From the NCBI RefSeq assembly GCF_017635265.1, contig NZ_JAGBLU010000063.1, forward strand, positions 1-60,647: a DNA stretch of 60,647 nt, read 5' to 3'. This document shows positions 6,711 through 25,942 of the stretch, in pieces. The notes beneath the pieces are model-generated. The model saw nothing but the letters and a program-made list of their open reading frames with translations, searched no databases and was not told the DNA's origin. Position 1 is the stretch's first letter; each line of letters starts with the position of its first letter. A program made the translations under genes and the position numbers. This DNA is from Butyrivibrio sp. (lineage in GTDB: Bacteria > Bacillota > Clostridia > Lachnospirales > Lachnospiraceae).

Positions 6711-6979
6711 GTTATTAAGAATAAAAAAGCTGTGACGAAGACAGTAGGCAGTGTATGAAAGCTTTCAGAGAGCCGGCGGTTGGTGTGAGCCGGTGCGAGT
6801 AGACGCTATCGAAAATCACTTCTGAGCTGCAGGATTGAACCTATAGTAGATCCTGACGAGTATCCCTTCGTTAACGGGAAGCGTATTCAACCATTTTAAA
6901 TGGCGCGTATGTGTAAACAGGTGGTATAACGAGAGTGTAATTACAGCCTCGTCCTTTTTACAAGGACGGGGCTTTTGTT
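6711..6979 (+). promoter_or_regulatory. T-box riboswitch leader, isoleucine-specific
   Basis: This leader senses uncharged tRNA-Ile and allows read-through into ileS. Stem I is the GC-containing region from about 6725, including AGAGAGCCGG. The specifier region reads GAAAATCACTTCTGAGCTG, with AUC (Ile) at 6815-6817 just before the conserved C-rich/GAGCTG element; a second AUC at 6808-6810 is a less likely reading. The T-box sequence AGGTGGTATAACGAG (about 6919-6933) provides the TGGT that pairs with the tRNA 3' end. The competing terminator is GCCTCGTCC (6946-6954) with GGACGGGGC (6964-6972) and a T-run. The downstream ileS gene confirms the assignment. Confidence 0.9.
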
Positions 6980-22816: not shown

Positions 22817-24667
22817 ATGATTGATGACATAAAGTTCCATGCTTTTATGAAGATGACCAGAGAAGCAGCCGGAGTATCTTTGGAGGAAGCCGGAAAAGGG
22901 CTATATACCAAGAGTATGATGGCGCAAATAGAGAAAGGAACAACTCTTCCCGATTACATGATGCGTAATCGTATAATGTCAAGATTAGGGATTTCTTCAG
23001 AAGGATATGAGGATTTTTTGCAGCCGGATGAATATAAAAGATACCTAAAGAGAATGGAGCTTATTAAGCTCATTGAAGCCCGACATTTTATTGAAGCAGA
23101 AGAGCAGATTGATCAGGTAATTTTACAGAATGATGAAAAACTGAATAAATTGGAGCTTCAGTTCTACTATGATATGAAGGGCAGGTGTTTACATTTTAGA
23201 AAGGCTTCTTGGGAAGAAATATTTGAAATGTACCAAAAAGCCTGCTCGTTAACAATGTTACTGGAAGAAGTGAACGAAAAAAGGTTCGGAGTCTGGGCAA
23301 CACTCGAATACTTTTTGCTGTTTAAAATGTTAGAGGCAAAGGCAGAGTGCTCGATTGTAAAAGAGGAGAGTAGTGAAATAGCTGATGTTTGCCTGGCTTT
23401 ACTAAATCATTTGGAAGTATCTACAATGGACGTTTTGGGTAAAGCGAAAGTATATACGGCAGGAGTTGTTGCTTTGGGGAAGATTGCCCATAAGAATGAT
23501 TATGCTCAGGTGGACAAAAAGACAGTTCTTGAGCAGTACGACAAGGCTTTGGACTACTTAAAGCAAAAGAGCAGGAGCTACTACATTGCTGAGATCCTTT
23601 CAGGAAAGATCAGCGTATTGGAAGAACTTGGTAATGAAGAGGAGCTTAAAAAGGCAAAAGAGATCTATGATCTGTTTGCAGAAGTCTATAGTGAATACGA
23701 TGTGGACTATTTTATGGATTATAACTGCTATATCTACAGAGATTCAGATATTTACTGCATCGGGGATGTTATTAAATCAAGAAGGCAGATGCTGAAGATA
23801 AGCAGAGAAGAACTTGCAGACAGGGTTAAATGTTCTTACAGAACATTGATGCGTATTGAGAATAGCGCCATTTCTGCTCAAAAAGCTGTTCTGCGCCCTA
23901 TTATGGATGAACTGAATATAAACTGTGACTATACTCGTTCGGATATAATTACTGATGATAGGGAAGTAGTGAATGAGTATTATTCGTTCGCAAATATGCT
24001 AAATAATTATGTGGCCGCAGATTACGAACAAATTTATACAGAATTGGAAAAAAGGATAGACTTTTCGTATACTTCCAATAAACAACTTTGGGACGCTATA
24101 AAACTGTATATTATCATGGGTGAAGGTAAGATAACAGAGAAACAATACACATCTAAACTGAAAGAAGATATGACTTTAACGCTACCTGTCCCTATTATGG
24201 AAATAGAGGATGGATACCTTAGTCACTCTGAATTAAATTTATTGATTGATATCGCGAAATTTTCTGAGGATAAAAAGGACAAAGAGCATCTGATGGAATA
24301 TTTGCAAGAATTTTGTAGTAAGCATGAATCAGGTGGCTACCCTGTGAATTACGGAACCTATGAAACAGTAATGATCTGGTTGGCAGATGAATATAGTGAT
24401 GTTGACAGAATAGAAAAAGTTGAAGAAATAGCAAGGGAATTACTAATATTAGAATTAAAAAGCCATCGACTTTTTGATCTTCATGGAGCACTATTTATGC
24501 TTCTTAGAAATAATGCGAAGATAGAAGAAAGAGATAATGAATATTATAAACAGAGCATTGATAAAATGATAAGGATATGCGATTTTATCAATAACTCTGT
24601 TCATAAAGAGTACTATACTTTAATCAAAGAAATGATTGAAAAAAAGGAAGATTGGAAACATTACTGA
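22817..24667 (+). CDS. Large regulator with two HTH regions and a helical-repeat body, RRNPP-like
   Basis: A 616-aa cytoplasmic protein. Residues about 8-60 form a divergent XRE HTH (FMKMTREAAGVSLEEAGKGL, SMMAQIEKGTTLPD). Residues 70-300 are helical and repeat-like (ARHFIEAEEQIDQVI, LELQFYYDMKGRCLHF), as in TPR sensor domains. A second, canonical HTH follows at about 314-370 (SRRQMLKISREELADRVKCS, YRTLMRIENS). The C-terminal 240 residues are again helical. RRNPP regulators (Rgg, PlcR, ComR) pair one HTH with a TPR domain that binds a secreted peptide; two HTHs in one chain is unusual. It overlaps tail-to-tail by 7 bp with a 72-aa exported peptide gene, which may encode its ligand. Confidence 0.75.
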   Translation: MIDDIKFHAFMKMTREAAGVSLEEAGKGLYTKSMMAQIEKGTTLPDYMMRNRIMSRLGISSEGYEDFLQPDEYKRYLKRMELIKLIEARHFIEAEEQIDQVILQNDEKLNKLELQFYYDMKGRCLHFRKASWEEIFEMYQKACSLTMLLEEVNEKRFGVWATLEYFLLFKMLEAKAECSIVKEESSEIADVCLALLNHLEVSTMDVLGKAKVYTAGVVALGKIAHKNDYAQVDKKTVLEQYDKALDYLKQKSRSYYIAEILSGKISVLEELGNEEELKKAKEIYDLFAEVYSEYDVDYFMDYNCYIYRDSDIYCIGDVIKSRRQMLKISREELADRVKCSYRTLMRIENSAISAQKAVLRPIMDELNINCDYTRSDIITDDREVVNEYYSFANMLNNYVAADYEQIYTELEKRIDFSYTSNKQLWDAIKLYIIMGEGKITEKQYTSKLKEDMTLTLPVPIMEIEDGYLSHSELNLLIDIAKFSEDKKDKEHLMEYLQEFCSKHESGGYPVNYGTYETVMIWLADEYSDVDRIEKVEEIARELLILELKSHRLFDLHGALFMLLRNNAKIEERDNEYYKQSIDKMIRICDFINNSVHKEYYTLIKEMIEKKEDWKHY

Positions 24668-24879
24668 TTAAAGAATGCAGTTCTTGGAAAGTGTGACTGA
24701 AGAGTAACGATGTTCTCCTCAGATACAGTTGTGTCACCAACTAAATCACTTACAGAAACAGTTGTTGTCTCAGTGTTTGTATTTGTATTGTCTGAAACAG
24801 TAACGAATGGAAATGAAATAGTAAATGTGAGATTAAAAATAACAAGTACAAGAACAAGTAAGCTACTAAATTTTTTCAT
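24661..24879 (-). CDS. Small exported peptide, candidate signal precursor
   Basis: A 72-aa precursor with a clear N-terminal export segment (KK followed by LLVLVLVIFNLTFTISFPF, residues 5-25), a Thr/Asn/Ser-rich spacer and the C-terminus IVTLQSHFPRTAFFNQ. The minus-strand ATG 24879 has GGGAGGATACTAAA upstream, a strong site that supports real translation. Its stop overlaps the convergent regulator gene by 7 bp. The size, export signal and position next to a TPR-type regulator suggest a pheromone whose C-terminal residues are released and re-imported, as in Rgg/ComR or PlcR systems. That role is an inference; it could also be a small wall-associated protein. Confidence 0.6.
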   Translation of the reverse strand: MKKFSSLLVLVLVIFNLTFTISFPFVTVSDNTNTNTETTTVSVSDLVGDTTVSEENIVTLQSHFPRTAFFNQ

Positions 24880-24942
24880 TTTAGTATCCTCCCAACAATA
24901 TTAGTTTTGTAAAATAAAATAAATCAAAAATGGCGCTATTTC

Positions 24943-24995
24943 AAGTGACAGAGTATTTTACTTTATCGTGTTTTTAGTATAATACTCTGTCACTT
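24943..24995. promoter_or_regulatory. 15-bp perfect inverted repeat between peptide and glycosyltransferase genes
   Basis: AAGTGACAGAGTATT (24943-24957) is mirrored by AATACTCTGTCACTT (24981-24995), 38 bp centre to centre. The right arm overlaps a perfect TATAAT (24978-24983) reading towards the glycosyltransferase. Its position between two divergent genes lets one regulator control both. The two-HTH protein next door is the obvious candidate (inference). Confidence 0.75.
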
Positions 24996-25066
24996 TTCTT
25001 TAACGCTGTGAAATTTTATCATGATATCAACGACAAAATTTTGACTTAATGAAGGGAGGCTATATC

Positions 25067-25942
25067 ATGATGAATGAAAAAAACATCAGTATAATTTTGC
25101 CGGTGTATAATGCGGAAAAGACAATAGCAAAATGCATAGATAATGCTTTACTTAGCCTTCGAGATGACGATGAACTTATAATTGTTGATGATGGATCAAC
25201 AGATGATACACCACGAATATGTATGGATTATGCCTGGAATTATTCCAATGTTTTTTTTAAACAACAGAAAAACAAGGGACTATTTCATGGGAAATTAGAG
25301 GGGATAAGAATTGCCAAGGGGGAGTACGTAAGCTTTATTGAAGCTGATGATGTCTGCGCGGAGAAAAGGTATAGTATTATGCATTCTGTCGTTTCAGTAA
25401 ATGATGCGGATATTATATTTTTTGGAGCAATAATTAAAAAGGACGGCTGCGATACAAAGGTATATGATCCCGATATGTTTCCCGGAAGATATTCCAAAAA
25501 GAAAATTATAGATACATTTGGAAAAAAGCTCTTTGGTAAGATTGAGAGTGATGACAATTCATATACCGGATATTTGTGGAATACATTGATAAAAAGAGAC
25601 GTTTTAAGCGGTATGGAGGAGTATGTAGACGAAAAAATCCGCTATTATGATGACGAGATAATAATGCTCCATGCTCTTATGAGGGCAAAAAAATGTGTTG
25701 TTTCTGAGAAAAAAATCTATCGATATGACTATGCCGGCTGTAAAACTAACAGAAAAAAGAAAAACTTTAGCCCTAAAAATTGGGAAAATATATTTGCTGT
25801 ATATAATTTAAAAAAAGGAATTGCAATTGAAAATGATATGTACAACAGTGAGATAGAGTTCCGACTTTCCTCTTTCTTGGGGCCAATTTCATTTATGCGT
25901 TTTATTATTGGACAGGATTATGCCCTGACAAAAACCATATAA
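25067..25942 (+). CDS. Family 2 glycosyltransferase
   Basis: A 291-aa GT-A fold transferase. ISIILPVYNAEKTIAKCID begins the nucleotide-binding fold, ELIIVDDGSTDDTP carries the DDG motif near residue 45, and YVSFIEADDVCAEKRY holds the metal-binding D-x-D-like EADD. The C-terminal 150 residues are basic with no membrane segment. Such enzymes add sugars to surface polysaccharides or lipids; donor and acceptor cannot be read. ATG 25067 (or 25070) is preferred, since AAGGGAGG ends 7 nt before it; the frame begins at 25049. It is divergent from the peptide gene and shares the inverted repeat, so peptide-regulated surface glycosylation is possible. Confidence 0.82.
   Translation: MMNEKNISIILPVYNAEKTIAKCIDNALLSLRDDDELIIVDDGSTDDTPRICMDYAWNYSNVFFKQQKNKGLFHGKLEGIRIAKGEYVSFIEADDVCAEKRYSIMHSVVSVNDADIIFFGAIIKKDGCDTKVYDPDMFPGRYSKKKIIDTFGKKLFGKIESDDNSYTGYLWNTLIKRDVLSGMEEYVDEKIRYYDDEIIMLHALMRAKKCVVSEKKIYRYDYAGCKTNRKKKNFSPKNWENIFAVYNLKKGIAIENDMYNSEIEFRLSSFLGPISFMRFIIGQDYALTKTI

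Follow-up and report, generated by a model that had tools for sequence, protein, structure and literature searches.

A 60,647-nucleotide stretch of DNA from Butyrivibrio sp. (NCBI RefSeq assembly GCF_017635265.1, contig NZ_JAGBLU010000063.1; "the window" below means this whole stretch) encodes what is probably a cell-cell signaling circuit of the RRNPP kind, built around a fused two-module receptor that would be activated by its own peptide. The locus comprises a two-module regulator of 616 aa (22817..24667, forward strand), in which a first helix-turn-helix (HTH) and helical repeats are followed by a second HTH and helical repeats; a 72-aa open reading frame (ORF) for an exported-type pro-pheromone (24661..24879, reverse strand), lying tail-to-tail with the regulator; and a divergent GT2 glycosyltransferase (GT; 25067..25942, forward strand; PF00535, E = 2.2e-26) as the proposed target. 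Six features of the sequence carry this reading, namely the duplication of the receptor module, its PlcR-type relation, the recurrent convergent peptide, the inverted repeat between the divergent genes, the hypervariable peptide end and a mosaic block. A peptide-signaling circuit had been proposed for this locus in an initial annotation made from the DNA letters, and it is now supported by the co-occurrence of peptide and receptor, the mosaic receptor block and the PlcR-like modules.

The source genome (G000) spans 4.15 Mb in 151 contigs and is 88% complete. Orthologues of the regulator are found in Butyrivibrio sp. Su6 (82% identity), B. proteoclasticus P18 (82%) and Butyrivibrio sp. AE2015 (68%). 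In all four genomes the order of a TelA-family gene, the regulator, the convergent peptide, the divergent GT and a neighbor that we take to be galT-like is kept.

A receptor made of duplicated PlcR-like modules

Both HTHs of the 616-aa regulator, as initially annotated, were recovered by Pfam: HTH_31 matches residues 10-60 (HTH1, 22844..22996, forward strand) and HTH_3 residues 319-371 (HTH2, 23771..23929, forward strand). Conserved residues repeat with a period of about 308, including, besides the two HTHs, the pairs Q115/Q423, T146/T455 and E164/E472. Profiles of the N- and C-terminal halves of 47 sequences aligned with hhalign over 258 columns with a probability of 99.92 and an E-value of 1.1e-34. 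Judged by these comparisons, the receptor arose by tandem duplication of one PlcR-like unit of HTH plus helical repeats.

Homology of the PlcR type across both HTH and repeats was found for the C-module only and through the family profile, positions 310-600 of which align with residues 10-287 of the 293-residue PlcR chain (E = 2.2e-23). Weaker matches of the same profile, with E-values of ~1e-6 to 1e-4, connect the N-module with the chains 5w4m and 4yv6, listed as "transcriptional regulator" and presumably Rgg proteins, and the second HTH with ComR (6hu8, 5fd4); designed tetratricopeptide repeat (TPR) proteins and kinesin light chain TPRs also score high against it. The helical repeats described in the initial annotation thus find their support in the family profile and its PlcR match, not in a TPR model on the window protein itself, in which they are predicted from its relatives. 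Among seven siblings scanned, one (L102; family loci carry L numbers here) passes the RNPP_C cut-off (28.6 versus 26.5 bits) and also matches a TPR model, and three others (L125, L128, L132) fall at most 2 bits short of RNPP_C. The receptor alignment (A3) excludes L037 (contig end), L039 and L079 (interrupted), L100 (502 aa), L109 (two-gene) and L110 (890 aa). The C-terminal helical-repeat domain (residues 376-616; 23942..24664, forward strand), which the family profile aligns with PlcR, is the proposed pheromone pocket.

A convergent peptide gene recurs with the receptor

The peptide starts with MKK followed by a long hydrophobic stretch, which suggests export, and has a Thr/Ser-rich spacer. 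Its length, its strong Shine-Dalgarno (SD) sequence (GGGAGG, 24888..24893, reverse strand, read as the complement) and its 7-bp overlap with the end of the regulator gene (bases 24661-24667) were all confirmed in the sequence as first described, and the same overlap is present in all three orthologues. An ORF antisense to the peptide gene (24710-24904, forward strand) recurs in Su6 but differs in AE2015 and is absent from the P18 ORF list, and it was rejected as a gene.

To assess the recurrence of this arrangement, we scored as a peptide any short convergent, SD-led ORF with a charged-then-hydrophobic N-terminus and a stop between -40 and +60 nt from the receptor stop. Such a peptide accompanies the receptor at 32 of 53 family loci as against one of 270 other genes of the same loci (Fisher p = 6e-29, uncorrected for relatedness), and the single positive control gene is itself a family receptor in tandem. 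Setting aside the three orthologues of the window leaves 29 of 50 loci. The initial annotation had named a failure of peptide and regulator to co-occur in related genomes as a result that would speak against the circuit; the counts point the other way. Measured from the receptor stop, the peptide stops fall at -22 to +9 nt, with 12 exactly at -3, and 20 of the 32 peptide genes overlap the receptor gene. Receptor and pro-peptide genes are thus directly adjacent, as in RRNPP systems, in the window, its three orthologues and these 32 of 53 loci, and the pro-peptide size (72 aa in the window, 45-77 aa across the 32 loci) fits the RRNPP range of 10-100 aa.

At L077 (G490:C44) two family receptors stand in tandem and a convergent peptide follows the second only. 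At L080 (G180:C11) the receptor end is overlapped by a hydrophobic ORF of 23 aa, preceded by a strong SD, that resembles short hydrophobic peptides rather than Sec pro-peptides. L112 and L113 (G172:C77) are paralogous systems ~9 kb apart whose receptors are 78% identical, with a near-identical operator arm and clearly different peptides; cross-talk between them is possible.

Hypervariable peptide ends and a mosaic receptor block

The last seven residues of the peptide (RTAFFNQ in the window, codons 24664..24684, reverse strand) are hypervariable among the orthologues. Between orthologue pairs, leader and spacer agree at 57-62 of 64 residues, as against 2-4 of the last seven; the four peptides read RTAFF, ISILR, RNVLF and THRVNV before NQ, and the contrast between leader and end reaches significance for five of the six pairs, with p from 3e-5 to 0.009. 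Little weight is given to the constant Q of NQ because it sits in the overlap with the receptor stop codon. This hypervariability supports the initial assignment of the signal to the C-terminal part of the peptide. Two other genera, with 4 and 1 genomes, offered too few for further sets of close orthologues.

The pheromone codons also mark one end of a mosaic block (23173..24690) that begins in the first helical domain, as delimited by DNA identity between Su6 and AE2015 in bins of 100 alignment columns. Upstream, identity is 93-99% in bins up to 22973 and 90% at 23073; over bins 23173 to 24673 it is no more than 57-84%; it is back at 96% in the leader bin at 24770, and stands at 78% in the next bin (peptide start and intergenic DNA) and at 89-99% over the repeat and the GT. 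For the same pair the identities of TelA, GalT and the GT are 99.0, 97.6 and 96.5%, versus 70.9% for the receptor. Between Su6 and P18, the bins from 23973 to 24473 inside the receptor are at 70-77% and the earlier ones at 81-95%. Both HTHs are 94-100% identical among the four orthologues (HTH1 95-100%), and the C-terminal helical-repeat domain is the fastest-diverging part of the receptor (56-76%). The simplest reading would be that a receptor-pheromone cassette has been exchanged; the C-terminal domain may then be a main determinant of specificity, a suggestion that comes mostly from one pair. As a separate observation, the synonymous divergence (dS) of the peptide gene among the orthologues is 0.12-0.25, versus 0.18-1.10 for TelA, where pairs with the window give 0.9-1.1 and the other pairs 0.18-0.41.

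An inverted repeat between the divergent genes

The inverted repeat AAGTGACAGAGTATT/AATACTCTGTCACTT lies between the peptide gene and the GT. In the window its perfect stretch is 15 bp long, in agreement with the first description, and extends to 20 bp if one mismatch is allowed; it is kept in all four orthologous loci, being 19 bp and perfect in Su6 and AE2015 and 19 bp with one mismatch in P18. The left arm (24943..24961) is the proposed activator box on the peptide side, and the right arm (24977..24995) that on the target side. The search of relatives for gene order and repeat suggested in the initial annotation returned, besides the order kept in the three orthologues, the repeat in the same four genomes: allowing up to three mismatches, it occurs once each in four of 79 genomes of the genus, exactly those with a regulator orthologue, and a reversed control pattern gave zero matches in the same 79 genomes. 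This co-distribution is more than chance. As to a regulon elsewhere, one further single-arm match with one mismatch (L021 ~1501-1519, that is C84:15275-15293) falls inside a 522-aa ORF, presumably a cardiolipin synthase, and was taken as chance; the six other arm matches in the genome have three mismatches and are about as many as with the reversed control.

Across the family, repeats scoring at least 15 are found in the 260 nt that precede the peptide start at 21 of 33 peptide loci (the three window orthologues included) versus 7 of 147 control genes, and repeats scoring at least 12 at 22 of 33 versus 23 of 147. The operators seen are locus-specific inverted repeats, with arm cores shared across genera (e.g., GACAGAGTTGTC and ATGACGTTTT) and arm spacing ranging from 1 to 28 nt between loci. 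The similarity of the arms follows the identity of HTH2, the likely reader of the repeat, with rho = 0.46 at 21 hand-chosen loci and 0.33 at 27 loci after a rerun that added six left-out repeats; given the helical domains, rho is 0.42 and 0.32, respectively, and none of 2000 permutations reached these values in any case. For HTH1, rho is 0.11 at 21 loci (155 and 136 of 2000 permutations) and 0.15 at 27 loci (65 of 2000).

These data bear on how the two HTHs are used. The initial annotation had a single receptor chain grip one repeat arm with each HTH, an arrangement suggested by the match of two HTHs with two arms and mildly favored by the HTH1 correlation in the 27-locus run. The arms, however, are copies of one sequence, whereas the HTHs are diverged, the modules forming separate clades; the arm spacing varies over the range given above; and HTH1 goes untracked in the 21-locus run, its rho being 0.00 once the helical domains are given (997 of 2000 permutations). 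Since the arm sequence tracks HTH2 rather than HTH1, we consider one HTH per arm improbable. The variant in which each arm is itself a pseudo-palindrome docking one chain was also rejected: summed over 23 arms, the observed score is equaled or exceeded in 442 of 1000 shuffles. More remote still is the explanation of the repeat as a transcription terminator or RNA hairpin beside an incidental convergent ORF: long repeats could fold as RNA, but no terminator-like site was found in 24600-25100, the arm sequence follows HTH2, and convergent ORFs are far more frequent than in the control.

The position of the repeat relative to the promoters speaks to the sign of regulation. At 18 loci, a set that excludes the three window orthologues and L092 (where the repeat overlaps the SD), TATAAT-like hexamers matching at least 5 of 6 positions cluster with starts at 11-18 nt outside the peptide-side arm (11 hits; 1 of 500 shuffles) and at 14-21 nt outside the target-side arm (9 hits; 5 of 500 shuffles). 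In the window, the proposed -10 of the GT is TATCAT (25017..25022, forward strand; TATTAT in the orthologues), read from the sequence and backed by this family-wide enrichment. That of the peptide gene is TATTTT (24916..24921, reverse strand), found by pattern scan at roughly the family-wide position; it matches at only 4 of 6 positions and is too weak to count in the 18-locus test. Each element is 21 nt away from its arm, and the one of the peptide gene is preceded by a -35-like TTGAAA (24939-24944, reverse strand; pattern scan). The repeat was initially placed over the -10 of the GT, which is probably wrong: where the right arm of the window has TATAAT, all three orthologues have TAAAAT, and TATCAT better fits the family-wide -10 position. 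Across the family the arms would appear to coincide with the -35 regions of the two divergent promoters.

A repressor that shuts both promoters until relieved by the peptide would be compatible with the promoter-like hexamers also seen within the repeat, and RRNPP regulators of both signs are known. We regard it as unlikely, if clearly less so than the alternatives above, in that the -10-like hexamers cluster outside both arms at the 18 loci and the repeat lies upstream of both likely -10s, which is the usual geometry of activators. With arms at both -35 regions, an activating autoloop therefore seems most likely.

Divergent neighbors as candidate targets

The GT of the window, which has family-level matches only, more likely starts at 25067 or 25070 than at the initially annotated 25049: an SD (AAGGGAGG) lies at 25052-25059, and the AE2015 ORF has its first start codon at the aligned position. 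This gene is in the same place in the three orthologues and so kept in 4/4, and the neighbors at other loci are quite different. From 49 loci, 35 divergent first genes were listed (the first gene was not divergent in 8, and none was found in 6), and 20 were scanned with Pfam, 12 giving a match above the cut-off. Five of the 20 are radical SAM enzymes (L032, L039, L104, L105, L106); the others are EAL proteins (L084, L109), ABC transporters (L095, L097), a ThiF protein (L102), a histidine kinase (L088) and a Big_2 protein (L033). The divergent gene of L078 matched below the cut-off, and those of L038, L075, L080, L082, L090, L091 and L094 had no Pfam match at 1e-4. L039, L095, L097 and L106 have no peptide by our criterion. 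The receptor may regulate these divergent neighbors; for the window, the surface glycosylation proposed in the initial annotation is a putative output.

One could instead see the Ser/Thr-rich peptide as the substrate of the GT2, yielding a glycopeptide or something glycocin-like, with the regulator answering another cue. The Thr/Ser-rich spacer and the adjoining GT2 in the window and its three orthologues would suit this; yet the peptide also stands beside radical SAM (L032, L104, L105), EAL (L084, L109), ThiF (L102) and histidine kinase (L088) genes, and the peptide C-terminus varies in step with the receptor block. We give a substrate role a small chance, slightly below that of one HTH per arm.

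Two loci have biosynthesis-like surroundings. On the divergent side of L032 (G008), a 44-aa Cys/Gly-rich ORF with a GTG start and an SD is followed by radical SAM/SPASM and ABC-transporter-like genes, an arrangement that looks like a cluster for a ribosomally synthesized and post-translationally modified peptide (RiPP) controlled by such a switch. At L106 (G374:C3), a radical SAM gene, a transporter-like gene and a Cys-rich ORF (CSGCSGSCTGNCGNSC) stand in a row within ~4.7 kb behind the receptor, with no convergent peptide detected there. Elsewhere in the window, a T-box leader (RF00230, 104.8 bits) lies at 6723-6959 on the forward strand.

Forms, phylogeny and distribution of the receptor family

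Receptors of the family come in three forms: fused, adjacent two-gene and single-module. The two-gene form, split near the module boundary, is found at eight loci (L109, L124, L125, L126, L135, L137, L138, L139) and the single-module form at 13, with frames of ~264-340 aa in both. At L039 (G061) and L079 (G175:C144) the frames are broken inside a module, unlike the boundary split of the two-gene forms. Under a peptide rule slightly looser than that for fused loci, a peptide is present at the receptor end of the two-gene loci L109, L125, L135 and L137 and 115 nt away at L124, and none is at the receptor end of L126, L138 and L139; among single-module loci it is present at four of 13 (L127, L128, L136, L140) and also at the later-seen L163. 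The single-module pair L128/L163 has peptides with PAPSSDD in common in their C-termini and with different leaders.

A tree of 125 modules places every one of the 56 N-modules in a single clade (support 1.0). The 56 C-modules likewise all cluster, joined by the single-module protein L136 (a grouping at the root, where there is no support value), within a 62-leaf clade supported at 0.969. This separate grouping indicates that the duplication is old and common to fused and split forms. With midpoint rooting, and with the interrupted L039 counted as split, the two-gene state may, as a soft inference, lie at the base with three changes.

Profile matches were obtained in 49 of 397 sampled genomes of the family Lachnospiraceae (E <= 1e-10), many of them partial or single-module, and in 21 of 79 genomes of the genus at 1e-20. 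In a sample of 391 genomes of the class, seven match at 1e-25, the three outside the family being one-module matches only. At most three candidates were scored per genome in the family and class samples.

A proposed circuit

For the circuit as a whole we infer export, processing, import, binding, and activation rather than repression. The 72-aa pro-peptide would be exported through its own signal sequence and cut outside the cell to a short C-terminal peptide, which would be re-imported by an oligopeptide permease; SBP_bac_5 binding proteins, of the peptide-import class, number six in the window genome and also occur in 11 of 14 control genomes. Inside the cell, the C-terminal helical-repeat domain would serve as the main peptide-binding site, in a chain that already pairs two PlcR-like modules. 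The peptide-bound receptor would then dock via HTH2 on each arm, just upstream of or overlapping both -35s, and turn on the peptide gene, giving positive feedback, along with the divergent target, here the GT2.

Several observations weigh against this reading. Of the 53 loci, 21 fail the peptide criterion: L037 ends at a contig edge, L080, L087 and L107 have a plausible peptide by eye, and most of the rest have no visible one. The signal sequence was judged by a hydropathy rule only. In the window protein, HTH models are the sole Pfam matches, RNPP_C being missed as well as TPR. The hypervariability rests on four close orthologues only, and the sixth pair (window versus P18) has p = 0.053 and is not significant alone. 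Between Su6 and P18 the divergence extends beyond receptor and pheromone, the GT bins past 25169 being at 71-83% and bin 22799 at 71%. The peptide gene has a low dS, for which overlapping function or homogenization by recombination may account. Twelve of the 33 peptide loci have no score-15 repeat, and in a sigma-70 scan of the window alone hits were no commoner than in shuffles.

A broader proposal, which we would put at even chances, concerns the Lachnospiraceae, dominant bacteria of the gut and rumen. It holds that they have a large uncatalogued signaling family in which one chain makes a ready-made dimer, the C-module reading pheromone and DNA and the N-module acting as a fixed partner. 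Pherotypes would be swapped as a cassette running from the receptor repeats to the last pheromone codons and linked by the tail overlap, and each copy would rule the operon behind its divergent promoter (RiPPs, c-di-GMP, glycosyltransferase).

Relation to known systems

From its sequence features, this is a real and recurrent architecture, probably for peptide signaling, and a variant of RRNPP systems with a fused receptor. Like the systems catalogued by RRNPP_detector (PMC10075063), it has a small propeptide, putatively of Sec type, beside a receptor of predicted TPR type. The default settings of that tool require a receptor length of 250-500 aa and TPR model hits, and the window receptor, with its 616 aa (~308 aa per module) and no TPR hit, falls outside them (PMC10075063). 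The string "Lachnospir" is absent from the main text of that paper, and the available parts of PMC9765709 and PMC12700828 mention neither "Lachnospir" nor "two HTH". Solventogenic Clostridium has Qsr/QssR, likewise clostridial pairs of RRNPP-type receptor and peptide, and the opening lines of the abstracts mention no fused two-module receptors (PMC7376267, PMC7206700); a rumen survey concerns, in the part available, LuxS and AI-2 (PMC7035670). The open-licence literature, to which the search was confined with subscription papers and preprints outside its scope, gave no RRNPP report for Butyrivibrio or Lachnospiraceae and none of two-HTH tetratricopeptide quorum sensing; among the matches listed in looser searches, none names this family in its title or the start of its abstract. 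The novelty of the fused two-module system in print is accordingly provisional.

RRNPP signaling in Lachnospiraceae thus seems unrecorded, and a main detection tool, at its default settings, filters out receptors of this length. The system points to a little-recorded route by which gut bacteria may communicate. With radical SAM genes as five of 20 divergent neighbors, a short synthetic peptide might therefore induce silent products. The exchanged block supplies paired alleles of receptor and pheromone with which specificity could be mapped, and the fused, two-gene and single-module forms are a natural series on the role of dimerization in this receptor class.

Among classical systems, Rgg/SHP and ComR/ComS of streptococci are related through the family-profile matches to ComR and the presumed Rgg chains. 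They form autoactivating loops and control neighboring RiPP genes, and their peptides, SHP and ComS, are less long and use a different export route. Rgg and ComR have a single HTH and a single module, unlike the window receptor. Another close system is PlcR/PapR of the Bacillus cereus group, in which an exported pro-peptide is encoded beside the receptor, the signal is C-terminal and pherotypes exist; the C-module of the family aligns nearly full-length with PlcR. PlcR, however, is one module, whereas the receptor described here is two such modules fused, with a convergent and mostly overlapping peptide gene and locus-specific repeats.

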